Of a stretch of DNA of 64,000 bases, positions 11,955-42,891 are shown in pieces. The position numbers and the translations under genes are program-made. The DNA is taken from the NCBI RefSeq assembly GCF_003789055.1, contig NZ_ML119082.1, positions 434,001 to 498,000 of the forward strand. Reading direction: 5' to 3'. The notes under the pieces were generated by a model, which worked only from the letters and a program-made list of their open reading frames with translations, was not told where the DNA came from and ran no database searches. The stretch's first letter is position 1. Each line of letters starts with the position of its first letter. Origin of the DNA: Histidinibacterium lentulum. GTDB lineage: Bacteria > Pseudomonadota > Alphaproteobacteria > Rhodobacterales > Rhodobacteraceae.

Positions 11955-12373
11955 TCACACCTCGACAGCTGGCCAAAAGACGCTTGCACAGAGACCCGGG
12001 CATGACAACGCGGAGCGGGACCCGGTCCGGGTGAGCCGGGACGGCGAAACCGATCGGACCGAGACGCGGCAATCGTTCTGCGCGATGTCGCGTCAGCGCG
12101 CCTCGATTTCAGGCAGTTGCGCGCTCGAGCCGGGCGAACCGGCCTTTCGCTAACCGGTGACACCCGGGGAATCATCCCTTGCAGCGTCATGTTTCCAAAG
12201 ACTTGCCGGGTGGCGCTGCGTTTCCGGCAACGGACAGGGCACAAATGAGCGGCAGACATCTACGCACAGAACGTCAGGATTGGTGCGCACCGCGTCGTCA
12301 GCCGGGCCGATGCCTGCCATCGGAACCGCCGCGACGCCGGGGCTGCAGAGCCACACAAGCGAAAGGTCATACC
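11955..12373. other. 419-base intergenic region holding divergent promoters
   Basis: This gap separates the divergent glycosyltransferase gene and the TRAP operon, so it must carry a promoter in each direction. I see no convincing gene in either strand. A short dyad ACCCGG-T-CCGGGT lies at 12020-12032, and a GAAAGG ribosome site at 12361-12366 precedes dctP. No regulator gene is adjacent to the TRAP operon. Confidence 0.4.
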
Positions 12374-20392: not shown

Positions 20393-22785
<2,393 letters not shown>

Positions 22786-23725: not shown

Positions 23726-24754
23726 TCAGGGCGTCCGGTGGGGCAGGTTCTCGCGCAGGATGATGCGCGGCTCGATGGGCTTGAGGGACAACAGCGGCGT
23801 GCTGGCGGCGATGGAGCCGAGGAGATGAGTCACCGCCTGTTCGCCCACGAGGCGTGGGTTCTGGTCGATCACCACGTCGATCAGCTCGCGCCTGAGCCAG
23901 TCGCGGGAGCTGTCGGTCAGGTCGTGGACGATGACGGCGGGGCGCGGGCCGGGGTGGGTTTCGAGCGCCTCGATGATGCCCGCGCGACCGGCGCCGATGC
24001 AGTAGATCCCCAGCAGGTCGGGCACCCGGCGCAGAAGCTCGAGGGTGGCGGTGTTGGAGCGGCGGTTGTCCTCTCCGGTCTCGGTGGCGGAGTGCACGCG
24101 CAGCTTCGGAAGGCGGTCGCGCAGCAGGTCCCGGAAGCCGCCCTCGCGCTCGTGATGGCCGTGGAAGGAGCGGGAGCCGAGCATCATGGCCACCTGCCCT
24201 TCTCGGCCGCGGGCGAGCATTCCCATGAGTTGGCCAGCGGTGCGTCCGGCGGTGCGGTTGTCAACGCCGACATAGGACGAGCGCGGCGTATCGGGGACGT
24301 CCGAGGCAATGGTGACGACCCGGATGCCCGAGTCGCAGAGCCGCGCGATGGCAGCGCGGGTGCGCGGCCTGTCGGTGGTCACGACGCCGACGCCGTTGGC
24401 CTGCGGCGAGATCGCGTCGAGCGCGCGCTCGAGCGCGTCGGGGCCGAGGCCGTTCATCGTGACGATGTTGCAGGAGGCGACCAGCGGCAAGCCGGAGGCG
24501 AAACTGGTGATGCTGCGCGCGAGGTCGCGCATGAAGGCGTTCTGGCCGAAGGGGATCAGGAACACGAGATGGGCGGGCCGCGCGGGCAGCATGATCATTC
24601 CGTCCGAGGGAAGGTAGCCCAGTTCCTCGGCGGCCTTCAGGACGCGGTGTCGGTTGGCGGCGCTGACCCCCTTGCGCCCGTTGAGCGCGCGGTCAACGGT
24701 GGCGGTCGAGAGACCGGCCCGCCGCGCGATATCCGGGATCGTGGCCTTGTCCAT
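23726..24754 (-). CDS. LacI-family transcriptional regulator of the desaturase/ABC operon
   Basis: A 342-residue LacI-type repressor. The helix-turn-helix and hinge are TIPDIARRAGLSTATVDRAL and the following NGRKGVSAANRHRVLKAAE segment. The rest is a periplasmic-binding-protein-like sensor, and its relatedness to sugar-binding proteins points to a sugar or polyol effector. The ATG at 24754 gives the standard start; a further 16 codons upstream run into its own operator. It is divergent from the operon starting at 25019, and a perfect palindrome lies 34 bases before its start, suggesting control of both directions. Confidence 0.9.
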   Translation of the reverse strand: MDKATIPDIARRAGLSTATVDRALNGRKGVSAANRHRVLKAAEELGYLPSDGMIMLPARPAHLVFLIPFGQNAFMRDLARSITSFASGLPLVASCNIVTMNGLGPDALERALDAISPQANGVGVVTTDRPRTRAAIARLCDSGIRVVTIASDVPDTPRSSYVGVDNRTAGRTAGQLMGMLARGREGQVAMMLGSRSFHGHHEREGGFRDLLRDRLPKLRVHSATETGEDNRRSNTATLELLRRVPDLLGIYCIGAGRAGIIEALETHPGPRPAVIVHDLTDSSRDWLRRELIDVVIDQNPRLVGEQAVTHLLGSIAASTPLLSLKPIEPRIILRENLPHRTP

Positions 24755-24787
24755 GATCCGGGCTCTCCCTGATGCCGAGATGTTGCC

Positions 24788-24810
24788 GGAGTGATGTAAC
24801 ACATCACTCC
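24788..24810. promoter_or_regulatory. perfect 10+10 palindromic operator upstream of LacI gene
   Basis: GGAGTGATGT (24788-24797), spacer AAC, then ACATCACTCC (24801-24810) form a perfect inverted repeat with a 3-base centre. It lies between the divergent LacI gene and the desaturase operon. The half-site core GTGATGT recurs at 24879-24885, and GATGTGA is repeated at 24881 and 24891, exactly one helical turn apart. These are the best candidates for LacI-type binding sites; binding itself is inferred. Confidence 0.7.
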
Positions 24811-25018
24811 TCGAAGGTCCCTGTCTGCTGCCACTTGTCGCTCAGGAAGGAGGATTCCGGGGCGGGACATGGCCGCGCGTGATGTGATCTGATGTGAAGT
24901 CCGGTTGTGGTGGCGCCGGGGATTGGTGATCCTGACGGGCGATGCTTGCCCGGTCCGCACCGGCGCCGCCCGACGGGGTGCCGCGCCTGTCGCCGGACCG
25001 ACGACCTGGGAGAACGAA

Positions 25019-26143
25019 ATGGCGAAGGATATGGCTGCCGAGCGTCGGCTGTCGGATTATTCCCTGACGGGCGACCGCGCGCACGAGGCCGTGCAGGCGG
25101 GGCTCGCGGCGGCGGAGTGGTACCACAGCGAGGTGCCGCGCAAGACGATGAAGGAGCTCATGAAGCGCAGTGACCAGCCGGCGATTCGCGATACGCTGAT
25201 CTGGGCTGCGCTCCATGTCGCGCTTGCGGGCGCGGGCATCCTGCTGTGGGGATCGTGGTGGGCGGTGCCGTTCTGGCTGGCCTACGGGGTGATCTACGGG
25301 TCGGCCTGCGACTCGCGCTGGCACGAGTGCGGCCACGGCACCGCGTTCAAGACGCGCTGGATGAACGACGCAGTCTATCACATCGCCTCGTTCCAGGTGA
25401 TGCGGAACCCGATCGCCTGGCGCTGGAGCCATGCGCGGCACCATACCGACACGATCATCGTCGGCCGCGATCCCGAGATCGCCTGGATGCATCCCATCAA
25501 CATGACGCTGAAGGCGCTGGCCTATGTGGGCATCGTGGATGCGTGGAAGTCGATGGGCATTCTCGCACGGCAGGCCATGGGAGAACTGTCGGCGGATGAA
25601 AAGGACTATATTCCCGAGAGCGAGCGGCCGAAGGCGATCTTCTGGGCGCGGGTCCACATGCTGATCTACATCGCCACGGCGACGACGGCGCTGGGCATGG
25701 CGGCGGCCGGCATGGGCTGGGCTTCGGTCATCCCCGTGCTGGTGATCGGCGGGCCGCGCATCTACGGTTGCTGGCATTTCGTGATGACCGGGCTTCTGCA
25801 GCACGGCGGTCTTGCCGAGGACGTGCTGGACCATCGGCTGAACAGCCGCACGGTCTACATGAATCCGGTGTCGGGGTGGATCTACTGGAACATGCAGTAC
25901 CACATCGAGCACCACATGTTCCCGATGGTGCCCTACTACAACCTCCCGAAGCTCCACGAGCTGATCAAGGACGACCTGCCACCGCCGAACACGTCGATCC
26001 TCGACGCTTACCGCGAGATGTTCGCGGCGGTGAAGCGGCAGAGGGAGGAGCCCGGCTACTACCTCAAGCGGGAGTTGCCGCCCACGGCACGGCCCTACCG
26101 CGACGAACTGCATCAGTTCGTGCCCGATCGGAGCGACGCATGA
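25019..26143 (+). CDS. fatty-acid-desaturase-family di-iron membrane enzyme
   Basis: A 374-residue integral membrane protein with the three histidine boxes of membrane di-iron desaturases and hydroxylases: HECGH (102-106), HARHH (138-142) and HIEHH (295-299), with an additional His at 262. Hydrophobic spans lie at about 60-95, 208-232 and 236-256. Family members use O2 to desaturate or hydroxylate lipids or small molecules. It is the first gene of an operon encoding a sugar-type ABC importer and soluble metabolic enzymes, which is unusual for a lipid desaturase, so a role on the imported compound is possible. The ATG at 25019 has a GGGAGA site. Its stop overlaps the next start. Confidence 0.85.
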   Translation: MAKDMAAERRLSDYSLTGDRAHEAVQAGLAAAEWYHSEVPRKTMKELMKRSDQPAIRDTLIWAALHVALAGAGILLWGSWWAVPFWLAYGVIYGSACDSRWHECGHGTAFKTRWMNDAVYHIASFQVMRNPIAWRWSHARHHTDTIIVGRDPEIAWMHPINMTLKALAYVGIVDAWKSMGILARQAMGELSADEKDYIPESERPKAIFWARVHMLIYIATATTALGMAAAGMGWASVIPVLVIGGPRIYGCWHFVMTGLLQHGGLAEDVLDHRLNSRTVYMNPVSGWIYWNMQYHIEHHMFPMVPYYNLPKLHELIKDDLPPPNTSILDAYREMFAAVKRQREEPGYYLKRELPPTARPYRDELHQFVPDRSDA

Positions 26144-26943
26144 GCCAGCGGAAACTGCCCACGGTGGCGGATCTGCTGGCGGCGAAGGGCCGCCGGCAGA
26201 TGACCATGCTGCGCTACTTCAGTCTGGAGGAAGCCGCGGCGGCGGAAGCGGCGGGGATCGACATCGCCTCGGTGCCCGACGACATCCTGCTGCATCCGCG
26301 CTACCGCGAGGCGGCGCCGTCGGTCTTCTCGATGACGGGACGCACCCATCTGGAGGCCGGCACGCCGGACGATTACCTGCGCTGGGCCGCGGATGCGATG
26401 AACCGAGGCGCGGATGCGATCTATTGTTCGGGGTCCTTCGATACGGTGGAGTATCTCGCCAACGAATACATCCCGGTGGTCGGCCATGTCGGGCTCTGCC
26501 CCTCGCGGGCGACCTGGACGGGCGGCTTTCGTGCGGTGGGCAAGACCGCCGAGAGCGCGCTGAAGCTCATGCAGGACGTGAAGGACTACGAGAGCGCGGG
26601 CGCCTTCGCGGTGGAGATCGAGGTCGTTCCGCCAGAGGTGGCCACGGAGATCTCGAAGCGGACCTCGATCCTCCTGTGGTCCATGGGCGCGGGGGGAGGC
26701 TGCGATGCGCAGTATCTCTTCGCCAACGATATCCTCGGCTATACCGAGGGCAAGATCCCGCGCCATTCCAAGGTCTACCGCGATTTCGCCACGGAATATG
26801 CGCGTCTGCAGGAAGAGCGGATCGCGGCGTTCCGCGAATTCGCGGCGGACGTCGAAAGCGGTGCCTTTCCAGAGGAGAGATACCTCGTCCAAATGGACGA
26901 GGCGGAGCTCGTCGCATTCCGCGGCGGGCTCGAGCCGGCCTGA
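26140..26943 (+). CDS. divergent ketopantoate hydroxymethyltransferase (PanB) family protein
   Basis: A 267-residue TIM-barrel protein related to PanB, which transfers a hydroxymethyl group from methylene-tetrahydrofolate to a 2-oxo acid. Matching blocks are PVVGHVGLCP (112-121), AVEIEVVPPEV (157-167) with Glu161 at the place of the catalytic Glu, and GYTEGKIPRHSKVYRDF. By eye, the usual metal ligands are not kept: the ADLPF Asp region reads FSMTGR here, and the KIEGG block reads IYCSGS (94-99). It may thus catalyse a different aldol or retro-aldol step. Its ATG overlaps the desaturase stop, so the two are coupled. It is not expected to be the housekeeping PanB. Confidence 0.75.
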   Translation: MSQRKLPTVADLLAAKGRRQMTMLRYFSLEEAAAAEAAGIDIASVPDDILLHPRYREAAPSVFSMTGRTHLEAGTPDDYLRWAADAMNRGADAIYCSGSFDTVEYLANEYIPVVGHVGLCPSRATWTGGFRAVGKTAESALKLMQDVKDYESAGAFAVEIEVVPPEVATEISKRTSILLWSMGAGGGCDAQYLFANDILGYTEGKIPRHSKVYRDFATEYARLQEERIAAFREFAADVESGAFPEERYLVQMDEAELVAFRGGLEPA

Positions 26944-27011
26944 CCGCCGGGGCCCGAGCGGGGCACAAGACCCCGCCGGCCGAACAATGACCGACAAGGA
27001 GGAGACATCTC

Positions 27012-27947
27012 ATGCTCAGACGGACATTCATGGGGGCGGCCGCGGCCCTTGCCCTGTCCACCGGCGCGGCCTTCGCGCAGGACACGAAGACGCTGTACTG
27101 GATCAGCCACGGCAGCCCCGCGGACCCGGTCTGGACCTATTTCCTCGAGGGTGCGGAGAAGTGGGCCGCAGATACCGGTCACACGGTCAACACCTCCTTC
27201 CACTCGGGCGACGTGCCGAGCCACCAGGAGGCGATGCGTGCGGCCATCGCTGCCGGAGCCGACGCGATCTGTTCCTCGAACCCCGACCCGGGCGCGCTGG
27301 TGGACACCGTGGCGGAAGCCCGTAACGCGGGTATCCCCACGCTGAACTTCAACACCCCCGATCCCAGCGCGGACTGGAACGCCTACATCGGCGGCAACCT
27401 CGTGGAAGTGGGCCGGCAGTGGGCCCAGTACCTCGTCGACAACGGCCACGTCGAAGAGGGCGATTTCGTCTGGATGCCCGTGGAGGTCCCCGGCGCCACC
27501 TACGGGGTCCAGGAGGAAGAGGGCATCGCGAGCGTCTTCGAGCCGCTGGGCATCACCTGGGAGGTTACCGACGCGACGCTCGACCAGGCCGAGATCATCA
27601 ACCGTATGACCGACTACCTGACGGCAAACCGCGACCGGATCGACGCGATGATCGGGCTCGGCGACCTCGTGACGGGATCGGTGCCACGGGTCTGGAACCA
27701 GGCAGGCGTTTCTCCGGGCGAGATCCCGGTCGTGGGCTGGGGCAACAGCCTCGACACCACGCAGGGCATCATGGACGGCTTCATCCTTGCCGGGATGTGG
27801 CAGGACCCGCAGGCGACGAGCTACATGTGCCTGTCCGCCGCGCTGATGGAGAGCTCGGGCATCCCCGTCGGCTTCGACATCATCACAGGGCTGCTCTACG
27901 AAGAGGATCTCGCCCCGCTCTACCACGAGATCATGGGCGGAAACTGA
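27012..27947 (+). CDS. ribose-type (CUT2) ABC transporter periplasmic binding protein
   Basis: A 311-residue periplasmic sugar-binding protein of the RbsB type. The Sec signal peptide ends at GAAFA|Q near residue 22. The mature part begins TLYWISHGSPADPVWTYF and has the AIAAGADAICSSNPDPGALVD strand typical of these folds, so it should bind a monosaccharide, polyol or similar small molecule. A strong AAGGAGGAG site precedes it. It is separated from the PanB-like gene by 68 bases and from the permease by a stable hairpin. The ligand is unknown. Confidence 0.9.
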   Translation: MLRRTFMGAAAALALSTGAAFAQDTKTLYWISHGSPADPVWTYFLEGAEKWAADTGHTVNTSFHSGDVPSHQEAMRAAIAAGADAICSSNPDPGALVDTVAEARNAGIPTLNFNTPDPSADWNAYIGGNLVEVGRQWAQYLVDNGHVEEGDFVWMPVEVPGATYGVQEEEGIASVFEPLGITWEVTDATLDQAEIINRMTDYLTANRDRIDAMIGLGDLVTGSVPRVWNQAGVSPGEIPVVGWGNSLDTTQGIMDGFILAGMWQDPQATSYMCLSAALMESSGIPVGFDIITGLLYEEDLAPLYHEIMGGN

Positions 27948-27962
27948 TCCGCCGCGACCTTC

Positions 27963-27985
27963 GCCCCCGGCCAGGTGCCGGGGGC
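27963..27985 (+). promoter_or_regulatory. stem-loop between binding-protein and permease genes
   Basis: GCCCCCGGC (27963-27971) and GCCGGGGGC (27977-27985) form a perfect 9-bp, all-GC stem with a 5-base loop (CAGGT). It sits 15 bases after the binding-protein stop and is not followed by a T run. It is probably a messenger-stabilising or partial-termination element that lowers permease expression relative to the binding protein. Confidence 0.6.
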
Positions 27986-28020
27986 GGCTTCTGTCCGCAG
28001 ACAGCCCCGGAAAGCCTTCC

Positions 28021-29073
28021 ATGACAGCCGAAAAGACCGACGCGCCCGCCGGCGCACCGCCACAGCAGAAGCGTGATTTCCTCCGCCGCCTGTCCGCGAC
28101 GCCCGAACTGGGTCCCGCGATCCTGCTCGTGGTGATGCTGGTCGTCTTCACGGCGATCAACCCGGCGTTCATGTCGCTGAACAACATCTCGAATGCACTG
28201 ACCTTTACCGTGGAACTGGGTCTGATCGCGCTCGGCATGACCCTGCTGATGACGAGCGGGGAATTCGACCTGTCCGTCGGTTCGGTCTTCGGGTTCACCG
28301 CCGTGGTGATGTGGACGCTGATCAACTCCACGGCGCTGGGAATGCCGTTGTCGTTCCTCATCGCGATGGCCGTGGCCATGGGAATCGGTGCGGTGAACGG
28401 GATATTCGTCACGCGGCTGAAGATCCCGTCGTTCCTCGTGACCCTCGGGATGCTCCTCGTGGTTCGGGGCAGCGCGCTGTGGCTGACGAGCGGCTTTCCT
28501 CAGCGCACATGGGACGCGGGCGATCAGTGGCTGGCCGAGGTGCTGGTGGGCAGCTTCTGCATCGGCGGCGACGGCGATTTCTGCACCGGCGGGCTGCGCA
28601 TCTACATGAGCCTAATCTGGTTCGTCCTCATTGCCCTCGCCTGCCACTACACGCTGACCCGCTCGCGCTTCGGGAACTGGATCCAGGCCACGGGCGGCAA
28701 CCCGGCAGCGGCGAAGAACCGGGGCGTGCCGACGCGCACCGTCAAGATGGTGCTCTTCATGCTGACCTCTGCGCTGGCGGGGTTGGCGGGGATCATCTCG
28801 TCGATCCGGGTGTCGGCGGCGAATCCGAACAGCGGCACGACCTACGAGCTCGAAGTGATCGCCATGGTGGTGATCGGGGGCACCGCCCTGATGGGCGGGC
28901 GCGGCACCATCATCGGCACGGTGCTGGGCGTGCTGATCCTGCGGCTGATGCGGAACGGGATCGTTCTGATCGGCGTGCCGGGTCTGGCCTACAACATCTT
29001 CATCGGGGCCATCATCCTCGGCATGATGGCGCTGCATTCGGCGCTGGAACGCCGCCACAACGAGGGGACCTGA
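28021..29073 (+). CDS. ribose-type (CUT2) ABC transporter permease
   Basis: A 350-residue membrane protein of the RbsC family with about ten spans from residue 38 onward. Family motifs are MTLLMTSGEFDLSVGSVFGF, NGIFVTRLKIPSFLVTLGM and the late TALMGGRGTIIGTVLGVLIL. A periplasmic insert around residues 158-196 has two cysteines (GSFCIGGDGDFCTGG), which could form a disulfide and is longer than in RbsC. It lies 3 bases before the ATPase gene. Confidence 0.92.
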   Translation: MTAEKTDAPAGAPPQQKRDFLRRLSATPELGPAILLVVMLVVFTAINPAFMSLNNISNALTFTVELGLIALGMTLLMTSGEFDLSVGSVFGFTAVVMWTLINSTALGMPLSFLIAMAVAMGIGAVNGIFVTRLKIPSFLVTLGMLLVVRGSALWLTSGFPQRTWDAGDQWLAEVLVGSFCIGGDGDFCTGGLRIYMSLIWFVLIALACHYTLTRSRFGNWIQATGGNPAAAKNRGVPTRTVKMVLFMLTSALAGLAGIISSIRVSAANPNSGTTYELEVIAMVVIGGTALMGGRGTIIGTVLGVLILRLMRNGIVLIGVPGLAYNIFIGAIILGMMALHSALERRHNEGT

Positions 29074-29076
29074 GCC

Positions 29077-29832
29077 ATGACCACCCCCATCGTCGAGATG
29101 CGCAACATCGAGAAGTTCTACGGCCGCATCCACGCCCTTCGCGGCGTGAACCTGAAGGTGAACCCGGGCGAGATCGTGGGTCTTCTGGGCGACAACGGCG
29201 CGGGCAAGTCCACGCTGATCAAGGTCCTCTCGGGCGCGGTGCCCTACACCTCGGGACAGATCTTCATCAAGGGCCGCGAGGTGCAGCTCAACTCCACCAA
29301 CGACGCCATCGCGAACGGGGTGGAGACGATCTATCAGGACAGCGCGCTGGTGCCGCAGCTGTCGATCGCGCGGAACCTGTTCCTGGGGCGCGAGCTCAGG
29401 AAGGGGCCGCGCTGGATGGACCGGATGGATACGGCGGAGATGAACCGGGTGGCCTCGGAACTGTTGCGGCGGGTCGGGATCACGAAGAACATCCCGCCCA
29501 CCACGCCGATCAGCGGCCTCTCGGGCGGCGAGCGGCAGGCGGTGGCGATCGCGCGGGCAATGTATTTCGACAGCGACATCATCATTCTGGACGAGCCCAC
29601 CAACAACCTTGGCGTGGCGGAGACGCAGGGCGTGCTGAACTTCGTGCGGGACGCGCGGGACAAGGGCCATGCCTGCATCTTCATCGCGCACAACATCCAC
29701 CACGTTTTCCAGGTCTGCGACCGGATGGTCGTGATGCGCATGGGCACCGTGGCCGCCGATGACCTGACGCCGAAAACGTCGACGATCCAGGACGTTGAGA
29801 ACGTCATCACGGGCGAGCATCTGGCAGCATGA
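29077..29832 (+). CDS. single-domain ribose-type ABC transporter ATPase
   Basis: A 251-residue ATPase. It has Walker A GDNGAGKST (about 39-47), the signature LSGGE (about 148-152) and Walker B IIILDEPTNN. Classical RbsA/XylG proteins carry two fused ATPase domains; this one has a single domain and would act as a homodimer, as in FrcA-type transporters. Its stop overlaps the ATG of the next gene by 4 bases. Confidence 0.92.
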   Translation: MTTPIVEMRNIEKFYGRIHALRGVNLKVNPGEIVGLLGDNGAGKSTLIKVLSGAVPYTSGQIFIKGREVQLNSTNDAIANGVETIYQDSALVPQLSIARNLFLGRELRKGPRWMDRMDTAEMNRVASELLRRVGITKNIPPTTPISGLSGGERQAVAIARAMYFDSDIIILDEPTNNLGVAETQGVLNFVRDARDKGHACIFIAHNIHHVFQVCDRMVVMRMGTVAADDLTPKTSTIQDVENVITGEHLAA

Positions 29833-30890
29833 TCCGGATCGCGGCGCGGGGAATAGAGGCGGCCTTTGCGGCGGAGCTCGGGCGGCTCGACGGGTTCACT
29901 GTGAGCGACGGCGGCCAGCGGATCGCCCCTCTGCACCGCGCGCCTTGGGTCGGCACCGGGGAGGCAATGCCCGCCGACGCCCCGCCGCTGATGGCGGGGC
30001 TGGGCGGCGATTTCTTCTGCGCGCCCTTCGCGCTGTCGGATGGGGACAGCCCGCTGCATGGCTGGCCGCCCAACGTCGCGTGGCATGTGCTGCTGGCGGA
30101 GGCAGGCGTCCTCAGGGCGGTCTGTTCGAAGACGGTGCGCGGCGCCGTGCTGGTCAAGGAACTGGCACTCGCGGATGATCACCCGTTCGTTTATCAGCGC
30201 CACGTCTTCGTCGGCGGAGCGGGACGGGTCACGGCGGCGAACCACGGGAACGTGTCCGTCCCCCGAGGCGCACTCATCCGGACCTCGCCCAAGTCCCATT
30301 GGGAGACGCCCCGGAACGCACAGGAAACCGATCCGGCGAGGGGACGCTCGGCCATCGGCGTGGGCGTGAGGGCGGAGGATCCGACAGCCTTTCCGACCGC
30401 GGCCGGCGGCTCGGTTGATCTGACGCGCTACCCCTGGTTCGACCGGACGGAGGATTTCGTGATCGGCGTGGAGGCGAAGAACTCGCCTCTGGGCTGGACG
30501 GCGGTGACGCGGCCCGAGGAGGGCGATCTCTATCTCTCGCTGCGCCATCCGCGGCAGGCGCCCATGAGCATGTTCTGGCAATCGAACGGCGGGCGGGACT
30601 ACGCGCCCTGGTCGGGGCGGCATACCGGCTGTCTCGGCGTCGAGGAGGGCGCGGCGGAGCACATGCTGTCGGTTTCGACAGAGGCGGACCTCGCGGGACC
30701 GGGCGCGCTGTCGCTGACGCCGGGCGGCACCGTGGAGATGCGGCATGGCACGGGCGCGATCGCCTGGCCCTCGGGCGCGGCGGTGGCGGAGGTGGTTCTG
30801 GAGGGCGACAGGCTTACGGTGCGGGGGGAGGACGGCGCGGTCAGGGATCTGCCGTTCCGCCAGGGATTCCTTGGGCTGGAGGGACCATGA
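29829..30890 (+). CDS. aldose-1-epimerase-like protein (galactose-mutarotase fold)
   Basis: A 353-residue soluble protein. The segment GGDFFCAPFAL...SPLHGWPPN resembles the PFG...HG blocks of aldose-1-epimerase-like proteins, and the later beta-rich sequence with HPRQAPMSMFWQSNGG fits the mutarotase supersandwich. No signal peptide is present. Translation is coupled on both sides (ATGA at 29829 and 30887). It may interconvert anomers of the imported sugar or act on a related acyclic acid. Identification rests on motif resemblance, so the fold is more certain than the activity. Confidence 0.65.
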   Translation: MIRIAARGIEAAFAAELGRLDGFTVSDGGQRIAPLHRAPWVGTGEAMPADAPPLMAGLGGDFFCAPFALSDGDSPLHGWPPNVAWHVLLAEAGVLRAVCSKTVRGAVLVKELALADDHPFVYQRHVFVGGAGRVTAANHGNVSVPRGALIRTSPKSHWETPRNAQETDPARGRSAIGVGVRAEDPTAFPTAAGGSVDLTRYPWFDRTEDFVIGVEAKNSPLGWTAVTRPEEGDLYLSLRHPRQAPMSMFWQSNGGRDYAPWSGRHTGCLGVEEGAAEHMLSVSTEADLAGPGALSLTPGGTVEMRHGTGAIAWPSGAAVAEVVLEGDRLTVRGEDGAVRDLPFRQGFLGLEGP

Positions 30891-31909
30891 CGAAACCTGT
30901 GGTCATCGCGGCGCCGGAGCCGCGGACGCTCGACCTGATCTTCCGCCCCGATCGGCTGGAGGAGCTGCGCGCGGGCTATGACGTGCACGAGGTGGAGGCC
31001 CACGCGCTGGAGAGCCTGCCCGACGAGGTGCTGCGCCGGGCGCGCTATGTCATCGGTCAGCCGCCCATCGGGGAGGACCTGCTGGCGCGGATGGAGAGCC
31101 TCGCTTGCGTCTTCAATGTCGAGGGCAATCTCTTTCTCAACATGCCCTACCCGCGGCTGTTCGAGCGCGGCATCCATGTGGTGACCACGATGGAGGTCTT
31201 CGCCCGTCCGGTGGCGGAGATCGGGCTGGGGCTGGCTCTGGACCTGATGCGCGAGATCACGGAGGCGGATGTCGCATTCAGCGAGGGGCGGGAGAGCTGG
31301 GGGCTCGAAAGCAACGGGCGGGCGCGGCTTCTGACCGGTGCCGATGTGGGGCTGATCGGCTTCGGCGGGATCGGGCGGTCGCTGCTGCCGCTTCTCATGC
31401 CGTTCCGGCCGAGGCTGCGGATCTACGATCCCTGGCTGCCGCCTTCGGTGATCGCGGAGGCCGGGGCCGAGGCGGTGGAGCTGGACACGCTGCTGCAGGA
31501 GAGCGAAGTCGTCTTCGTGCTCGCCTCGGTGACGGACGAGAACGAGGGGTTCCTCGGTCCGGATGCCTTTGCGCGGATGCGGCCGGGGGCGGCCTTCGTG
31601 CTCTTGAGCCGGGCGGGCGTGGTGGATTTCGACGCGCTGGTGGAGGCGGTGCAGCGCGGGCATATCGTGGCTGCGAGCGATGTCTTTCCCGAGGAGCCGA
31701 TGCCGGAGGACCATCCGGTCCGGACGCTGCGGGGGTTCCTCAGGTCGGCGCACAGGGCGGGGGCGCTCGACGTGGCGTTCAAGGCGATGGGCGATATGGT
31801 GCTGGAGGACATGGCGCTGCTGGACCGCGGCCTGCCGCCGGTGCGCTGCAAGAGGGCGGAGCGGGAGACGGTCGCAAGGATGCGCTCGAAGCCGGTGGAG
31901 AAGAGCTAA
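30887..31909 (+). CDS. D-2-hydroxyacid dehydrogenase family protein
   Basis: A 340-residue NAD(P)-dependent dehydrogenase of the D-isomer-specific 2-hydroxyacid family. The Rossmann motif is GLIGFGGIGRSL (155-166). Catalytic Arg242 (LLSRAGVVD), a Glu in DVFPEEP (266-271) and His289 (SAHRAG) are recognisable. It presumably oxidises a 2-hydroxy acid to a 2-oxo acid or the reverse within the pathway of this operon. It is the last gene; a TAACCT-C-AGGTTA dyad overlaps its stop codon (31907-31919). Confidence 0.88.
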   Translation: MTKPVVIAAPEPRTLDLIFRPDRLEELRAGYDVHEVEAHALESLPDEVLRRARYVIGQPPIGEDLLARMESLACVFNVEGNLFLNMPYPRLFERGIHVVTTMEVFARPVAEIGLGLALDLMREITEADVAFSEGRESWGLESNGRARLLTGADVGLIGFGGIGRSLLPLLMPFRPRLRIYDPWLPPSVIAEAGAEAVELDTLLQESEVVFVLASVTDENEGFLGPDAFARMRPGAAFVLLSRAGVVDFDALVEAVQRGHIVAASDVFPEEPMPEDHPVRTLRGFLRSAHRAGALDVAFKAMGDMVLEDMALLDRGLPPVRCKRAERETVARMRSKPVEKS

Positions 31910-36552: not shown

Positions 36553-37752
36553 TCACCAGCCTGAAGGGCCCAGATCGGTCCAGGCCCCTCCCCGGGCATG
36601 GCTGTCGGCGCAAGCGTGGACGAATCGGACGCCCTGAAGTCCTTCGTCGGCGCCGGACAGGCAGAGGCCCTCGAGGTCTGCGGTCTGTCCGGCACGGCGC
36701 TGGCCGATGGCGATGGCGAGAGCCGCATAGAGATTGGCCCAGGCATCGGTCAGGGCCTCGCCATGGCCGCGGGGCAGATGCACGAGTTGGGCGGCCTCGG
36801 GGACGATGCCGGCGCCCTGCCCCCGCCTGACGATGCGCTCGGGTCCGTCGAGAGGCGTGTGGCGCAGATCCTCAGGGTATTCCTGGTCCCAGGACAGGCC
36901 GCCCGCGCTGCCCCAGATGTGGAAGCGGAAGCCGCAGAACTGACCGGGTGCCGCCTGGCTGATGTGCATCAGCACGGGCACGCCACCGGTAAGGCGGAGA
37001 GACACGAAGGCGGTATCCTCGAGCGGCTGCGGCGCGCCGCAGGTGTGGAACTCGGCCCGGAGCGCCTCGACCTCGCGCCCGGTGACGTGATGGAGCATGT
37101 GATAGGCATGGGTTCCGATGTCGGCCACGGCGGAACTGCGCCCCGCGGTGGCGGGATCGCGGCGCCAGAGCTGACCCTTGTCGTCGGGGCCTGCCGCATG
37201 CATCGAGCCGTCCTGCAGATATTCGATCCGGATCTGGCGCAGCTCTCCGATCTCGCCCGCCGCGACCATGGCGCGGGCCTGCCGGACCATGGCGTGGTGC
37301 ACATAGGGATAGGTGAGCAGCAAGGTGGGACCGGAACCGCCGGTGCGGGTCCGCAGGTCTTGCGCCTCCTCGACGGAATTGGTCATCGGTTTGTCGCAGA
37401 TCACGTCGATGCCCGCGTCGAGAAAGCCCGCGGCGATTGGGTGATGGGTGTGGTTCGGCGTGCAGACGACGACCGCGTCAATTCCGTCCGCCCGTGCGGC
37501 CTCGGCCCGGGCCATGTCCCGCCAGTCGCCATAGGCGCGGTCGGGGGCAATGGCCCAGTCCTGCGCGGAGAGCGCGGCGCGCTCGGGATCGGAGGACAAG
37601 GCGCCCGCAACGATGTCCCAGCGGTTCGACAGCCGCGCGCCCGAGGCGTGCCAGTCGCCCACGAGCCCGCCGCGACCACCGCCGACGAAGCCAAGCCTGA
37701 GCCTGCCGCCTGCCGGAGCGCGCCGGATGTGCGCGAGGTGCCCTGTCGCCAT
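36553..37752 (-). CDS. Gfo/Idh/MocA family oxidoreductase (inositol-dehydrogenase-like)
   Basis: A 399-residue NAD(P)-dependent dehydrogenase. The dinucleotide motif is LGFVGGGRGGLVGDWHASGA near residue 20, followed by VCTPNHTHHPIAAGFLDAG and CDKPMT, where the Lys of the EKP-type motif is kept. It closely parallels the second dehydrogenase of the region (42892). Family members oxidise inositols and related cyclic sugars. It is divergent from iolC, with a TGCAACCGGTT site between them, supporting a role in inositol or derivative catabolism. The true isomer used is unknown. Confidence 0.85.
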   Translation of the reverse strand: MATGHLAHIRRAPAGGRLRLGFVGGGRGGLVGDWHASGARLSNRWDIVAGALSSDPERAALSAQDWAIAPDRAYGDWRDMARAEAARADGIDAVVVCTPNHTHHPIAAGFLDAGIDVICDKPMTNSVEEAQDLRTRTGGSGPTLLLTYPYVHHAMVRQARAMVAAGEIGELRQIRIEYLQDGSMHAAGPDDKGQLWRRDPATAGRSSAVADIGTHAYHMLHHVTGREVEALRAEFHTCGAPQPLEDTAFVSLRLTGGVPVLMHISQAAPGQFCGFRFHIWGSAGGLSWDQEYPEDLRHTPLDGPERIVRRGQGAGIVPEAAQLVHLPRGHGEALTDAWANLYAALAIAIGQRRAGQTADLEGLCLSGADEGLQGVRFVHACADSHARGGAWTDLGPSGW

Positions 37753-37808
37753 GTCGCGTCCTCCTTTTCGTCGTGGCGCCGGGAAGCTAGGGGCGCGGCG
37801 AGCGGGAT

Positions 37809-37820
37809 TGCAACCGGTTT
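37809..37820. promoter_or_regulatory. TGCAACCGGTT operator-like site between dehydrogenase and iolC
   Basis: TGCAACCGGTTT at 37809-37820 shares its first 11 bases with the perfect 14-bp palindrome at 42848-42861. It lies 57 bases before the iolC start and in the shared promoter region with the divergent dehydrogenase. AACCGGTT-centred palindromes are typical LacI-family operators, so one of the two LacI proteins in this region is the likely reader. Confidence 0.5.
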
Positions 37821-37876
37821 CGTTCTCACCGGCGCGGGCCTAGGCTCCCGGGAAGGGACGCGAGGGAGGCCGCCGG

Positions 37877-38821
37877 ATGGTGGGGATCGGGACGGGGCCT
37901 GTGCATGTGCTGGGCCGTGCGGGCATGGACTTCTATGCCGAGCCCGCGGGGACGGCGGTGGCGCAGGCGGAGGGGTTTTTCGCCTGCCTCGGCGGGTCGG
38001 CGGGGAATATTGCGGCGGGTCTGGCGCGGCAGGGCCGGGCGGCGGCGCTGATCTCCGCCGTCTCGGACGACGCGGTGGGGCGGTTCGTGCTGGCGGAGCT
38101 TCGGCGCTACGGCGTGGGGTCAGCGCATGTGGCGGTGAAGGGCGGCGCGACGCGCACCTCGCTTGCGGTGACCGAAACGCGGGGCGCGCCGGAGACGGTG
38201 ATCTACCGCAACGGAGCGGCGGACCTGATGCTGGAGGCGGAGGATCTGGCCGGGATAGACTGGGCCGCCTCGGGCGGGCTGATCGTGACCGGGACGGCGC
38301 TGGCGGCAGAACCGTCGCGCGGGGCAGCGCTGGCGGCGATGCAGGCGGCCCGGGATACCGGGCGGGCGGTGGTGCTCGACGTGGATTACCGGCCCTATTC
38401 CTGGCGGTCGGAGGTGGAGGCTGCCGAGGTCTGCCGGAGTGCGGCGGCGCTCTGCAGCCTTGTCGTGGGCAATGACGAGGAATGGGCGGTGATGGCCGGG
38501 GGGGAGGGCCTTTCGCTGGCACGGGCAACGGGGCGGGACCGGGTCGCGATCTACAAGAAAGGGGCGGAGGGCTGCGAGACCTTCCTTCCGGGACGCGACT
38601 TTCGGACCGGCATCTTCGCAGTGACGGCGCTGAAGCCCATGGGCGCTGGGGATGGCTTCATGGCCGGCCTGATCGCGGGGCTGGCCGAGGGCGGGACGAT
38701 GGAAGAGGCCGTGGAGAGGGGCGCCGCGGCAGCGGCTCTGGTTGTCTCAAGCAAAGGCTGCGCCCCCGCCATGCCCACGGCGGCGGAGCTTGAGGCGTTC
38801 CTGGCGGAGCGGCGGCGTTAG
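37877..38821 (+). CDS. iolC: 5-dehydro-2-deoxygluconokinase-like PfkB kinase
   Basis: A 314-residue PfkB/ribokinase-family sugar kinase. The start VLGRAGMDFYAEPAG, LGGSAGNIAAGLARQG, the GTALAAEPSR block and LDVDYRPYSWRS follow IolC, which phosphorylates 5-dehydro-2-deoxygluconate in inositol breakdown. The catalytic GAGDG motif is in KPMGAGDGFMAGL. Other inositol-type genes (iolB, aldolase) lie 3-5 kb away, which supports the call. It overlaps the convergent LacI gene by 4 bases. A GGGAGG site precedes the ATG. Confidence 0.78.
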   Translation: MVGIGTGPVHVLGRAGMDFYAEPAGTAVAQAEGFFACLGGSAGNIAAGLARQGRAAALISAVSDDAVGRFVLAELRRYGVGSAHVAVKGGATRTSLAVTETRGAPETVIYRNGAADLMLEAEDLAGIDWAASGGLIVTGTALAAEPSRGAALAAMQAARDTGRAVVLDVDYRPYSWRSEVEAAEVCRSAAALCSLVVGNDEEWAVMAGGEGLSLARATGRDRVAIYKKGAEGCETFLPGRDFRTGIFAVTALKPMGAGDGFMAGLIAGLAEGGTMEEAVERGAAAAALVVSSKGCAPAMPTAAELEAFLAERRR

Positions 38822-39828
38822 CCCAGCATCGGCGGCAGCATCAGGCGCAGGGCGGCGCCGCCGGGCGGGGCGTGCATCGCGCCGCGGCTGGCGCGGGCGA
38901 GGATGATGCGGCAGGCGGTGCGGATGTCCTCGGCCAGGTCGTGGTAGAGCACGGCGTCGAGCGCACCTTCGGCGAGCAAAGCGCGGTTGTCCGGGTCGAG
39001 GTCGTGGCCGATGACGAGGGCCGGCGTCACCCCGGCGGCGGAGAGCGCGGCAAGGAGCCGCCGGTTGCTCCCGCCGATGGAATAGAGCGCATCGGGCGGC
39101 GGGCCGGACAGGGCCGCCCGTGTCAGCCGGTCCAGGAAGGCGGGGCCGTCGGTGCCCTCGGTGAGGTCCAGCACCTCCGCCGCGGGCAGATGCCGTGCGA
39201 GCGCGACGCGAAAGCCCGCCGCGCGTTCTCCCTCGCCGCGGAACCCGGGGTTGCGGATGGTCACCAGGACGCGCGCCGTGTCGGGCCGGGTGCGGGCGAT
39301 GATCCAGGCGGCGGTCTCCCCTGCCCGGCCGTTGTCGAGGCCGACATAGCCGCTGCGGCCCGATCCGGGCATGTCGGAGGCCAGCGTGATGACCGGGATC
39401 CCGGCACCTTCGAGCGCACGAATCCTCTCCGAGAGCGGCGGCGCGTCGGGGGCCATGAGGATCACGCCGTGGCTGCCCGTCCGTTCCACCCGAGCCAGCG
39501 CGGCGGAAAGCTGCGGGACGGGAAAGCGGGTGCGCATGTCGGCCCGGACACGGAAGGCGGCGGGCTGCATGAGCGGAAGCTCGCGCCGGAGGGCGGACCC
39601 GAGCTCGTCGATGAAGGTCTGGGGCGCCTCGACCAGCAGGTCGACGATGAGACGGCGACCGGCGATGGAGAGCTGACCCGCCTGGGCCTCCAGTTCCGCG
39701 ATGGCCTTCTCGACCCGGGCGACCGTGCCTGCCCGCACGCCGCCGCGCCCGTTGAGGACGCGGTCCACGGTGGCGGTCCCGACCCCGGCCTGCAGGGCGA
39801 TTTCCTTGACGGGAAAGCGGTGGGGCAT
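38818..39828 (-). CDS. LacI-family transcriptional regulator
   Basis: A 336-residue LacI-type regulator with helix-turn-helix PVKEIALQAGVGTATVDRVL and hinge NGRGGVRAGTVARVEKAI, followed by a sugar-sensing domain. The TATVDRVLNGR pattern is common in regulators of polyol and inositol genes. It is divergent from the PhyH dioxygenase gene (39930). Direct repeats ATCCATCA/ACCATCAA occur just upstream of its start on its own strand. It could read the AACCGGTT sites of this region. Confidence 0.88.
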   Translation of the reverse strand: MPHRFPVKEIALQAGVGTATVDRVLNGRGGVRAGTVARVEKAIAELEAQAGQLSIAGRRLIVDLLVEAPQTFIDELGSALRRELPLMQPAAFRVRADMRTRFPVPQLSAALARVERTGSHGVILMAPDAPPLSERIRALEGAGIPVITLASDMPGSGRSGYVGLDNGRAGETAAWIIARTRPDTARVLVTIRNPGFRGEGERAAGFRVALARHLPAAEVLDLTEGTDGPAFLDRLTRAALSGPPPDALYSIGGSNRRLLAALSAAGVTPALVIGHDLDPDNRALLAEGALDAVLYHDLAEDIRTACRIILARASRGAMHAPPGGAALRLMLPPMLG

Positions 39829-39929
39829 CCTCTTGATGGTTTCCTGATGGATTTCGGCTGCGCGGGCGCAGGGTAACCCGGCCTATCGTCGGGGAACAGA
39901 ACCGACCCACAGCATGAGAGGAGGAGACC

Positions 39930-41111
39930 ATGCTCGATCAGGGAGGGACCCGCGCGCCGGTGTGGCTGGACGATGCGTCCTGCGACATCGACGCCTTCAA
40001 GCGCCATGTGGACCGGACCACGACGGCCGCCGACTATCCCCGTGCCGCGGAGATTGTGGCGAATGTTCCGGTCTACGATGGCCCCGCGCTCGATCTCGGC
40101 ACGGAAGCCGGGGCGCGGGAGGTCATGGCGGAATGGAACCGCACCTTCCTGTCGGGGCCCGGAATCATCGCGGTGCGGCGCGGCTATACTGACCTTGCGC
40201 TCGTCGATGCGGTGACCGAGGCCCTGTCAGCGATCATCGCCGAGGAAGCGGCGGCGGGCACCGGCAAGGGCGATCACTTCGCCGCCTCGGGCGCCAACAG
40301 CCGGGTCTGGAACGCCCATGAGAAGCTGGCGGTCGCAGCGCCGGAGCTCTTCGTGCGCTACAACGCAAACGAGATCGTGCGGCGCGTGGCGGAGTCCTGG
40401 CTCGGCTCGGGCTACCAGATCACCACGCAGGTGAACGTGGTCCGGCCCGGCGGCAAGGCGCAGACGGCGCATCGCGACTATCACATGGGCTTTCAGGACG
40501 CGGAGACCCTGCGCCGATATCCCGCCTCGCAGCATGCGCTGTCGGCCTGCCTGACGCTCCAGGGCGCGGTGGCGCACAGCGACATGCCCGTGGTGTCGGG
40601 GCCGACGAAGCTCCTGCCCTATTCGCAGAGCTACCTTCCCGGCTATCTCGCCGTGCTGCGGCCGGAGTTCCGGGCGTTCTTCGAGGAGGCCCATGTGCAG
40701 CTTCCGCTCGAGAAGGGGGACCTGCTGTTCTTCAACCCGGCGACCTTTCACGCGGCGGGGGAGAATCGGACGAGCGACGTGCAGAGGTTCGCGAACCTGA
40801 TGCAGATCGGCTCCGCCTACGGGCGGTCCATCGAGATCGTGGACCGCACGAGGCTGACCGAGGCGATCTACCCTGCACTGAGCGGGCTTGCGGCGGAGGG
40901 CGCGCTCAGCGCGCGGGAAGCGGACAACGTGGTCGCGGCGGCGGCGGAGGGCTATCCGTTTCCGGCCAATCTCGACATCGATTCGCCGCTGTCGGGCATG
41001 GCGCCGCCAAGCCAGCAGGACGTTGTGCGGCAGGCGCTGGCCGAGGGCTGGGACGCGGGGCGGCTCGGCCAGGCGCTGGCCGAGCAGAATGGGCGCAAGC
41101 GGTCACACTGA
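39930..41111 (+). CDS. phytanoyl-CoA dioxygenase (PhyH) family protein
   Basis: A 393-residue non-heme iron, probably 2-oxoglutarate-dependent oxygenase. The facial triad is seen as His181-x-Asp183 (TAHRDYHMGF) and His274 (NPATFHAAGENRTSDVQRF), with Arg280 or Arg286 for 2-oxoglutarate. PhyH members hydroxylate lipids, antibiotics or small metabolites. It sits among inositol-type genes with a divergent LacI regulator, so it may hydroxylate or demethylate a substituted inositol or sugar; that is inference. An AGAGGAGGAG site precedes the ATG. It overlaps the convergent aldolase gene by 9 bases. Confidence 0.82.
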   Translation: MLDQGGTRAPVWLDDASCDIDAFKRHVDRTTTAADYPRAAEIVANVPVYDGPALDLGTEAGAREVMAEWNRTFLSGPGIIAVRRGYTDLALVDAVTEALSAIIAEEAAAGTGKGDHFAASGANSRVWNAHEKLAVAAPELFVRYNANEIVRRVAESWLGSGYQITTQVNVVRPGGKAQTAHRDYHMGFQDAETLRRYPASQHALSACLTLQGAVAHSDMPVVSGPTKLLPYSQSYLPGYLAVLRPEFRAFFEEAHVQLPLEKGDLLFFNPATFHAAGENRTSDVQRFANLMQIGSAYGRSIEIVDRTRLTEAIYPALSGLAAEGALSAREADNVVAAAAEGYPFPANLDIDSPLSGMAPPSQQDVVRQALAEGWDAGRLGQALAEQNGRKRSH

Positions 41112-41945
41112 CGGACGGTCGCCCGGCGCCAGCTCCCGCAGGAGGCGCCGGGCCGCCTCGGTCAGGGGGTCGATCGTTTCAGTCAAGATCTCGATGCGGT
41201 CGAAGCGTTCCGGGTGCCGCGCGAGGCCCTCGCGCAGGGCCGCGCCGAAGGTCCGGCGCAGTTCGGTCCCGAGGTTGAATTTCGCCACGCGGGTTCCGGC
41301 GGCAAGGCTGCGGCGCATGGCGGACGGGATGCCAGAGCCGCCGTGCAGGACAAGCGGCACGGCGGTGGCGGCCTCGATGGCGGAGAGGGCGGCGCGGTCG
41401 ATGTGGGCCTCGGGGCCGGTCTGCAGGTGCAGGTTGCCCACGGAGACGGCGAGGGCGTCGAGGCCGGTTTCCTCGGCGAGGATGCGGGCCTCCTCGGGAT
41501 CGGTCGGGGCCGAGGAGGCGCCGCCGGCATAGCCCACGGTACCGACCTCGCCCTCGACCGACACGCCCGAGGCATGGGCGAAGCGGACGACCTCTCGCGT
41601 CAGGGCGACATTCTCGGCAAGCGGCAGGTGCGAGCCGTCGAACATCAGCGAGGAGAGGCCCAGATCGAGGGCGCGGCGGCAGTCGTCCACGTCGCGGGAA
41701 TGGTCGAGATGGGTCACGACGGGGACAGGGGCGGTCTCGGCGAGGTGGGCCAGCATCGGGGCCAGCACCTCGAGCGGGGTATGGGCGCGGGCGCCGGGGC
41801 CGATCTGGAGGATCAGCGGCAGGCCTTCTGCCTCGGCGGCGCGGGTATAGGCGAGAGCGTCCTCCCAGCCCTGCACGACGAAGCCGGGCACGGCGTGGCC
41901 GCGGGCATTGGCCTCTGCCAGTACCGGGGCGAGCGCGGCCTTCAT
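41103..41945 (-). CDS. iolJ: class II aldolase (IolJ-like, 6-phospho-5-dehydro-2-deoxygluconate aldolase type)
   Basis: A 280-residue zinc-dependent class II fructose-bisphosphate-type aldolase. Motifs are VTHLDHSRDVDDCRRALDLG, EGEVGTVGYAGG, LHGGSGIPSAMRRSLAAGTRVAKFNLGTE, with the metal-binding His and phosphate-binding Gly/Ser positions kept. Its ATG overlaps the iolB stop by 4 bases, so the two are co-translated, and the context makes the inositol-pathway aldolase the best call. A tagatose- or fructose-bisphosphate aldolase is the alternative. The frame is open upstream to 42224, but that part overlaps iolB and is not used. Confidence 0.75.
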   Translation of the reverse strand: MKAALAPVLAEANARGHAVPGFVVQGWEDALAYTRAAEAEGLPLILQIGPGARAHTPLEVLAPMLAHLAETAPVPVVTHLDHSRDVDDCRRALDLGLSSLMFDGSHLPLAENVALTREVVRFAHASGVSVEGEVGTVGYAGGASSAPTDPEEARILAEETGLDALAVSVGNLHLQTGPEAHIDRAALSAIEAATAVPLVLHGGSGIPSAMRRSLAAGTRVAKFNLGTELRRTFGAALREGLARHPERFDRIEILTETIDPLTEAARRLLRELAPGDRPSV

Positions 41946-42784
41946 CGGAACTTGGCCACCATGTCCTTGATGCCGGGGATCGTCTCCACCTGATCGGCAT
42001 GGGAGGGTTGGAAATACTGAACCAGCGGGCGCTGGGATGCGCCTCCGAGAATGGTGAAATAGTACATTTCGTACCCCGGCAGGACGGCGCAGGGATGATA
42101 GCCCCGGTCGATCAGCATCGTGGAGCCATCGACCACATGGTAGGCGTCGCCCGCTGCCCCGTCCTCGCGTTGCAGCATCTGAAGGCCCGATCCGTGGGCG
42201 GGGCGGAAGCGGAAGTTGTAGCATTCGTCGTGATGCGTCTCGTCCGGCAGGCGGTCGGTGTCGTGCTTGTGGCTGGGAAAACCGGACCAGCCCCCCTGCC
42301 CCACAGTGTAGAGTTCGGACACGAGGAGGCGGCTGACGCGGCCCGCCTGTTTCTGGCCGAGGATATGCTTGATCTTGCGGTGGGTCTTGGTGTCGTCGGA
42401 GCCGTATTGCACGACGTCGATCTCGTCCTTTCGCACCGCGAAGGGGGTCAGGCGCTCATCCGTGCGGGCGCCGGCGACGAAGACCTCGGCGGCGCGCGTC
42501 CGGCAGGTAACCTCCGCGGGCACGCCTGCGGGGACGTAGACGCCCTCGGGTTCTCCGTCCCAGACATCGGCGCCGCGACCGCCCAGTGCGGTGAAGGTCT
42601 CGCCTTCGACCGAGATATCGACGGCGCCGGTAGCGGGGACGAGGCAGGTTTCGTAGCCTTCGACGCGGGTTTTGACGCGCTCGTCCGCCCTGAGGCGCAG
42701 GATATTGAAATAGACGTGGGGGAGGCGCGGGTCGTTCGCCCCGACGATCGCGGCGTTGCGGTTGTCGTGCGGGGGAATGTGCAT
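41942..42784 (-). CDS. iolB: 5-deoxy-glucuronate isomerase
   Basis: A 280-residue cupin-fold isomerase of the inositol catabolic pathway, converting 5-deoxy-glucuronate to 5-dehydro-2-deoxygluconate. Recognisable blocks are GGWSGFPSHKHD, the ETHHDECYNFRF metal-binding stretch and VLPGYEMYYFTILGG. Length is that of the family. It is co-transcribed with the aldolase and divergent from the second dehydrogenase, with a palindromic operator in between. iolA, iolD, iolE and a full iolG set are not in the window and must lie elsewhere if the pathway is complete. Confidence 0.92.
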   Translation of the reverse strand: MHIPPHDNRNAAIVGANDPRLPHVYFNILRLRADERVKTRVEGYETCLVPATGAVDISVEGETFTALGGRGADVWDGEPEGVYVPAGVPAEVTCRTRAAEVFVAGARTDERLTPFAVRKDEIDVVQYGSDDTKTHRKIKHILGQKQAGRVSRLLVSELYTVGQGGWSGFPSHKHDTDRLPDETHHDECYNFRFRPAHGSGLQMLQREDGAAGDAYHVVDGSTMLIDRGYHPCAVLPGYEMYYFTILGGASQRPLVQYFQPSHADQVETIPGIKDMVAKFR

Positions 42785-42847
42785 CGGGTGCTCCAGGGGG
42801 TGGAATTACCGTTTGACCGGGGCTCGGGGGCAAAGCTACCGATCAGA

Positions 42848-42861
42848 TGCAACCGGTTGCA
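42848..42861. promoter_or_regulatory. perfect palindromic operator TGCAACCGGTTGCA
   Basis: This 14-bp perfect palindrome lies in the 107-base gap between iolB and the divergent dehydrogenase at 42892, 31 bases before the latter's ATG. Eleven bases of it recur at 37809 upstream of iolC. The form is that of a LacI-family operator. A LacI gene follows directly after the dehydrogenase. Confidence 0.65.
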
Positions 42862-42891
42862 AGGGCAATCGGGTTCGGGAAGGGGCGGCGC

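Follow-up and report, generated by a model that had tools for sequence, protein, structure and literature searches.

The closest described counterpart of the locus treated here is the rhizopine system mocDEF, in which, reportedly since the work of Bahar et al. in 1998, MocD is the oxygenase, MocE the ferredoxin and MocF the reductase. MocD was described as the rhizopine oxygenase that demethylates 3-O-methyl-scyllo-inosamine (3-O-MSI) to scyllo-inosamine (SI) (PMC2593844). The accessible parts of the published mocDEF descriptions mention neither a PanB-like gene nor purU behind mocDEF. Three further systems serve as comparison: PanB, the ketopantoate hydroxymethyltransferase (KPHMT; structures 1m3u, 1oy0 and 3vav), the inositol (iol) operons, and the purU-mabO-folD operon of pAO1, described as acting on the methylene-tetrahydrofolate that arises from demethylation in the nicotine pathway (PMC3891541). 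We analysed a stretch of 64,000 nucleotides of Histidinibacterium lentulum (contig NZ_ML119082.1, positions 434,001 to 498,000; hereafter the window), in which an operon within positions 23726-31909 combines a MocD-like oxygenase with a divergent PanB. We propose, with a probability of roughly 55%, that this operon imports an O-methyl sugar or cyclitol and demethylates it oxidatively, with tetrahydrofolate (THF) receiving the one-carbon unit through the PanB relative.

A first-pass annotation, made by a model from the sequence, had described seven same-strand genes with short gaps or ATGA overlaps opposite a LacI repressor, and the coordinates and the order of all eight genes agreed with it. 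The ATGA overlaps lie at 26140 (oxygenase/PanB-like), 29829 (ATPase/mutarotase-like) and 30887 (mutarotase-like/dehydrogenase). The parts it had named were also recovered: three histidine boxes (HECGH at residue 102, HARHH at 138 and HIEHH at 295), a PanB-like barrel, a CUT2 importer with a one-domain ATPase, a mutarotase fold and a 2-hydroxyacid dehydrogenase. The features are as follows.

23726-24757, minus strand: LacI-family repressor (PF00356, 57 bits; Peripla_BP_4, 123 bits)
24788-24810, no strand: probable LacI operator in the LacI-operon gap, with 10-bp arms and a 3-nt spacer
25019-26143, plus strand: DES, a MocD-like membrane di-iron oxygenase (PF00487 FA_desaturase, 125 bits; three histidine boxes; its kind carries the annotation fatty acid desaturase elsewhere)
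26140-26943, plus strand: PanB-like protein with a KPHMT fold and a rebuilt active site (PF02548 Pantoate_transf, 145 bits, profile positions 92-259 only)
27012-27947, plus strand: CUT2 substrate-binding protein (Peripla_BP_4, 128 bits)
28021-29073, plus strand: CUT2 permease (BPD_transp_2, 167 bits)
29077-29832, plus strand: single-domain CUT2 ATPase of 251 aa (ABC_tran, 119 bits)
29829-30890, plus strand: protein of mutarotase fold (assigned to neither a Pfam nor an NCBIfam family; the model resembles galactose mutarotases)
30887-31909, plus strand: D-2-hydroxyacid-dehydrogenase-family protein, an optional member (PF02826 2-Hacid_dh_C, 125 bits)

The conserved unit across genomes is the oxygenase with the divergent PanB, often accompanied by a MocE ferredoxin. 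Two collections were compared. For the family sample, 295 genomes were drawn evenly from within the family, each species represented once; at E <= 0.001, DES was matched in 206 and PanB in 197 of them, remote desaturases and true PanB included. The 103 PanB-like places scoring at least 136 bits were fetched and, after L190 had been dropped (two sub-threshold pieces only, from a copy with a stop), gave 102 genes, the window among them and the plasmid loci and L220-L226 apart. The named set consisted of the best 80 of at least 148 confirmed matches in named genomes, found by a pattern scan, with 84 PanB-like genes; the two collections overlap, L244 and L129 being apparently one contig (74807 bases each). 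A gap separated the scores of the PanB-like model, no gene falling at 140-200 among the 102 genes and 15 control loci of true panB, nine of which came from genomes also holding PanB-like genes. Within 8 kb, a range that some contigs do not reach, DES, an FA_hydroxylase-type protein or MocE was found near 93 of the 102 PanB-like genes and near none of the 15 controls, the hidden Markov models (HMMs) having been built from the first loci, so that models and test loci overlap, and loci within one family being related. The proportion was 69/71 among PanB-like genes scoring at least 300 and 24/31 among those scoring 200-300. On the fetched stretches of the named set, one of the three was present at 67 of the 80 loci; MocE lay near 62 and a MocF-like reductase near 28.

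The second partner family is PF04116 FA_hydroxylase, assigned by comparison with Pfam for one member (L090) and by HMM for the remainder. A tree of 191 PanB-like rows, built with FastTree and containing no true PanB, required a minimum of 10 changes between loci partnered by DES alone and loci partnered by FA_hydroxylase alone; the method is a fast one, and several branches were long. A contig of Candidatus Pelagibacter and three uncultured alphaproteobacterial contigs (L297, L299, L301 and L302) each carried DES, a reductase, MocE, a PanB-like gene, a second DES and an FA_hydroxylase in one cluster.

The other genes of the operon rarely accompany the PanB-like gene. The importer of the window was found near 4/102 PanB-like genes in the family sample and 7/84 in the named set, the mutarotase-like homolog near 6/102 and 5/84, and the dehydrogenase homolog near 2/102 (one being the window) and 0/84; apart from the window, L039 and L041 were the only scanned loci with a dehydrogenase homolog above 150 bits. 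The entire seven-gene operon was thus rejected as a conserved unit. The first-pass annotation had named, as grounds for giving up its reading, a finding that the desaturase and PanB-like genes are not conserved with the importer; half of this was borne out, the two genes being strongly linked to each other and the importer rarely accompanying them.

The PanB-like protein scored below the NCBIfam panB cut-offs (107 against 207.55 and 126 against 272 bits). Its predicted model had a mean predicted local distance difference test score (pLDDT) of 92 and was confident save for residues 122-129; the top 28 matches in the PDB were all KPHMT. In PanB, D45 and D84 are Mg ligands and K112 binds the oxo acid. 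Alignment with E. coli PanB placed G67 at D84, Y95 at K112, S97 at E114, H116 at H136 and E161 at E181, and D47 at D45 in a weak N-terminal alignment. Over the 191 rows, the D84 position was Gly in 161, Ala in 21, Ser in seven, and Cys and Asp in one each (Gly in 24/24 diverse members and in 39/44 in a further count); the K112 position was Tyr in 178 and never Lys, the D45 position was Asp in 25, and the equivalents of H136 and E181 were retained in all 191. Judged from these residues, the family retains the fold and two active-site residues of PanB and dispenses with the metal and oxo-acid site. A role in pantothenate synthesis was rejected, as the active-site residues differ and the genome holds a true panB at C4.

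The Mg/oxo-acid site is mostly lost; a THF-linked one-carbon loader fits the protein and an ordinary ketopantoate-type aldolase does not. The related idea that the PanB-like protein is an aldolase joining the released formaldehyde to a 2-oxo acid or another carbon acceptor without THF, with the dehydrogenase perhaps reducing the product, appears improbable. It would agree with the KPHMT fold, with the two retained residues and with the presence of a 2-hydroxyacid dehydrogenase in the operon itself; the substitutions at D84, D45 and K112 and the scarcity of the dehydrogenase at other loci speak against it, as do purU and folD, which, where present, indicate THF. The interpretation in the first-pass annotation, that the dehydrogenase oxidises an imported hydroxy acid and the resulting 2-oxo acid is then split by the PanB relative in a retro-aldol step, draws on the same operon membership of the two genes and meets the same rare linkage and the same loss of the canonical site; we consider it very improbable indeed. 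Other parts of that interpretation were supported: that a sugar-like compound is imported, that the oxygenase may remove a methyl group from it (one of three options offered), and that the PanB relative has to do with one-carbon units. Tandem PanB-like pairs were seen in L156 (at 7214 and 7999) and L176 (at 7843 and 8701), an arrangement that suggests heteromers or subfunctions. A homolog of the PanB-like protein is also encoded on pSymB of S. meliloti 1021. A literature search, with subscription journals mostly outside its coverage, found no publication linking a PanB relative with MocD or MocE.

The connection with THF comes from neighbouring genes. PurU yields formate, and FolD together with PurU converts 5,10-methylene-THF to formate. 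On plasmids of Rhizobium indicum, R. lentis and Mesorhizobium huakuii the order was oxygenase, ferredoxin, reductase, PanB-like gene and purU, with folD next in M. huakuii. FolD-like reading frames, unannotated in an incomplete gene table, were noticed behind purU in L220 and L221 (R. indicum and R. lentis) at 11570-12080 and may be partial copies. PurU or FolD was present on the fetched stretch of eight of the 80 loci of the named set, from Mesorhizobium, Nitratireductor, Rhizobium (two), Phyllobacterium and metagenome-assembled genomes of Hyphomicrobiales, Comamonadaceae and Acidimicrobiia. The family sample gave 3/102, against 0/15 for the true panB controls; a control of 15 loci is too small to tell 3% from 0, and the argument therefore rests on gene order in separate lineages. 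Among the three, only L105 had folD and purU immediately behind the PanB-like gene on the same strand; purU adjoined it on the opposite strand in L088 and was about 7 kb off in L133. In the pAO1 operon, too, FolD and PurU are encoded together and deal with a methyl group bound to THF (PMC3891541). The oxidase that demethylates is itself what loads THF in that pathway, whereas here the PanB-like protein is the proposed loader. The same paper gives formaldehyde as the end product of the nicotine methyl pathway; it also cites others for the involvement of a panB of P. putida J5 in nicotine catabolism.

The PanB-like protein might alternatively have no catalytic action on one-carbon units and serve the membrane oxygenase and its ferredoxin as a scaffold, a stabiliser or a regulator. 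That its gene is tightly linked to those of two oxygenase families and of MocE would suit such a part, and so would the loss of the metal ligands. We nevertheless hold it to be unlikely: the polar residues E31, D92, Y95, C96, H116, E159, E161 and H209 were invariant across 24 diverse members and have a catalytic look, the purU and folD neighbours would be left unexplained, and some PanB-like loci have no oxygenase nearby.

The proposed assignment of DES as a demethylase is based on its kinship with the moc loci. At 62% identity over 94%, DES matched the oxygenase encoded in a moc-type locus on R. indicum plasmid pPR13E04, the sequence from S. meliloti L5-30 being outside the comparison. On the R. 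indicum and R. lentis plasmids this relative of DES adjoins iolE, two Gfo/Idh/MocA genes, a gene for a sugar-binding protein and a regulator of the pyridoxal-phosphate (PLP) aminotransferase family. About 70-90 bp upstream of the plasmid oxygenase gene lie the moc-box repeats GAAGTGGTTCT and AAGGCGGCTCT, with a spacer of 13 bp and one mismatch each; the published arrangement of the mocB and mocD promoters is such a repeat pair (PMC10107442). The pair fits this design, and we read the R. indicum gene as mocD. The mocD of a mannopine plasmid paper (PMC6341043) belongs to another pathway and shares the name only. A MocE-family Rieske ferredoxin, often with a reductase of the FAD/NAD type, was encoded close to DES homologs, and one representative MocE-type ferredoxin exceeded the TIGR02377 cut-off. 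The operon of the window resembles the rhizopine system in its oxygenase and in having a sugar-type binding protein, and its relatives have MocE and FAD reductase partners and, some of them, inositol genes. In contrast to the moc-type locus, it has a LacI repressor in place of the PLP-aminotransferase-family regulator, and it includes a CUT2 importer of its own along with the genes for the mutarotase-like protein and the dehydrogenase.

Further paralogs of DES were seen in the same genome, L226 (G000:C6) at 65% and L034 (G000:C11) at 50%; a MocE gene lies about 2.7 kb from the paralog at C6, and the fetched stretches of L226 and L034 held no PanB-like gene. In the window at 20396-22779, a Rieske oxygenase and a reductase resemble glycine betaine monooxygenase GbcA/GbcB below the cut-offs (486 against 670 and 371 against 500 bits) and are possibly another formaldehyde-releasing demethylase beside the operon.

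DES could instead hydroxylate or desaturate a ring or side-chain carbon and leave the O-methyl group untouched. The FA_desaturase family is broad, and the best NCBIfam match of DES, a weak one, was an arginine hydroxylase (31 bits against a cut-off of 380). The close kinship with the moc-type oxygenase and the one-carbon genes beside its relatives argue for the methyl group. In addition, mocDEF homologs of R. mesoamericanum were up 1.5 to 2.1-fold in Mimosa root exudate, of which pinitol, an O-methyl inositol, was the component of highest concentration; the authors themselves proposed rhizopine use (PMC5789663). An action on ring or side-chain carbon therefore seems to us a minor possibility, and oxidative demethylation the likely reaction.

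The pathway that we propose would begin with the uptake of an O-methylated sugar or cyclitol by the CUT2 importer, as expected from its family. The MocD-like di-iron oxygenase would then hydroxylate the methoxy carbon with electrons from a MocE-type Rieske ferredoxin whose gene is located in another part of the genome, and collapse of the hemiacetal would leave the free sugar or cyclitol and formaldehyde. The PanB-like protein would move the one-carbon unit to THF, giving 5,10-methylene-THF and no ketopantoate, after which FolD and PurU would carry it to formate; from gene context and residues, we place the chances of this loading step at about even. The mutarotase-like protein and the dehydrogenase might process the demethylated product. 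Genes for these partner proteins were located in the same genome, MocE at C9 and C6, PurU at C10 and FolD at C8.

Several observations weigh against this proposal. The window contained no match to the MocE and MocF models, and it held neither purU nor folD. Adjacency to PurU or FolD is a minority trait among PanB-like loci, and the three rhizobial plasmid loci were chosen during the search for moc genes. Nine of the 102 PanB-like genes had no oxygenase or MocE nearby (L093, L104, L166, L167, L168, L171, L177, L183 and L191). In L167 and L177 (near 8170), the PanB-like gene ended, by eye, a ribose-type operon with ABC genes and a sugar kinase, and an RbsD-like protein in L177; function perhaps differs in this deep branch. 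In the named set, 13/80 loci had neither DES, FA_hydroxylase nor MocE, several on short contigs. Among these 13, purU adjoined the PanB-like gene in L264 (opposite strand) and L269 (same strand), a PhyH oxygenase lay directly upstream in L279 and about 3 kb off in L274, and a Rieske oxygenase about 3 kb off in L274 and about 6.5 kb off in L267. The role of the mocDEF homologs of P. syringae was left open by their authors, who suggested opine-like or aromatic compounds (PMC5132102), the latter in line with an oxygenase acting on ring carbon. Finally, no blastp match (E <= 1e-5) was found between the binding protein of the window and that of the R. indicum moc-type locus. A mutarotase suits an aldose better than an inositol; the substrate may be either an aldose or a cyclitol.

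The importer set was complete, with a Peripla_BP_4 binding protein, a BPD_transp_2 permease and an ABC ATPase, the latter aligning only with the first half of sugar ATPase models of about 500 positions. The best NCBIfam model of the binding protein was the rhizopine binding protein NF052284, at 52 bits against a cut-off of 420; being so far under this cut-off, it left rhizopine unsupported as the substrate. That model was passed in two of 385 genomes of the class, and no DES lay within the 20 kb fetched around the match. The mutarotase-like protein had no Pfam or NCBIfam match, and a shallow profile comparison gave nothing for membership in DUF4432; its fold was supported by a modest model (pLDDT 60, predicted template modelling score 0.69), whose top PDB matches were galactose mutarotases. 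This neighbour suggests an aldose. Inositol genes at other DES loci, where 10/135 fetched stretches carried an iolC- or iolD-like gene, suggest a cyclitol, as does an iol-like cluster about 4.6 kb downstream of the operon, which itself, unlike an iol operon, contains no iol gene. The cluster (36556-45022) comprises two Gfo/Idh/MocA dehydrogenases, an IolC-like kinase, an IolB-like isomerase, a PhyH dioxygenase and two LacI regulators; it exceeds the Pfam cut-offs and is under the NCBIfam inositol ones (290 against 300 bits for the kinase, 159 against 205 for the IolB-like protein), and it may receive the demethylated product. Mutarotase-type and inositol genes occurred together at none of the 135 DES loci; with a Fisher p of 0.12, mutual exclusion is not claimed.

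The inverted repeat GGAGTGATGT-AAC-ACATCACTCC at 24788-24810 was the sole site of the window within six mismatches of its arms. Among 10 related loci searched at up to five mismatches, an imperfect repeat with four mismatches occupied the same place in L035, the nearest locus; the sites in L037 and L040 fell within the DES gene, likely by chance, and seven loci had none. LacI homologs stood opposite the DES gene in related loci, for example at 78% (L035) and 64% (L039). Control of the operon by LacI through this palindrome is probable.

Plants and algae are rich in methylated sugars and cyclitols, pinitol among them, and the routes by which aerobic bacteria remove the methyl group from such compounds and deal with the formaldehyde are poorly charted. 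These demethylases appear to be accompanied regularly by a protein that is annotated as an enzyme of vitamin synthesis. We tentatively extend the proposal, at slightly less than an even chance, to a new metal-independent family of PanB-like proteins that would load one-carbon units from two families of membrane di-iron demethylases directly onto THF, a step so far missing from the pathways for rhizopine, O-methyl-inositol and methyl sugars in several phyla. If this is true, the annotation would be corrected in many genomes, the moc pathway would be completed, and a marker for the use of methyl sugars would be gained.

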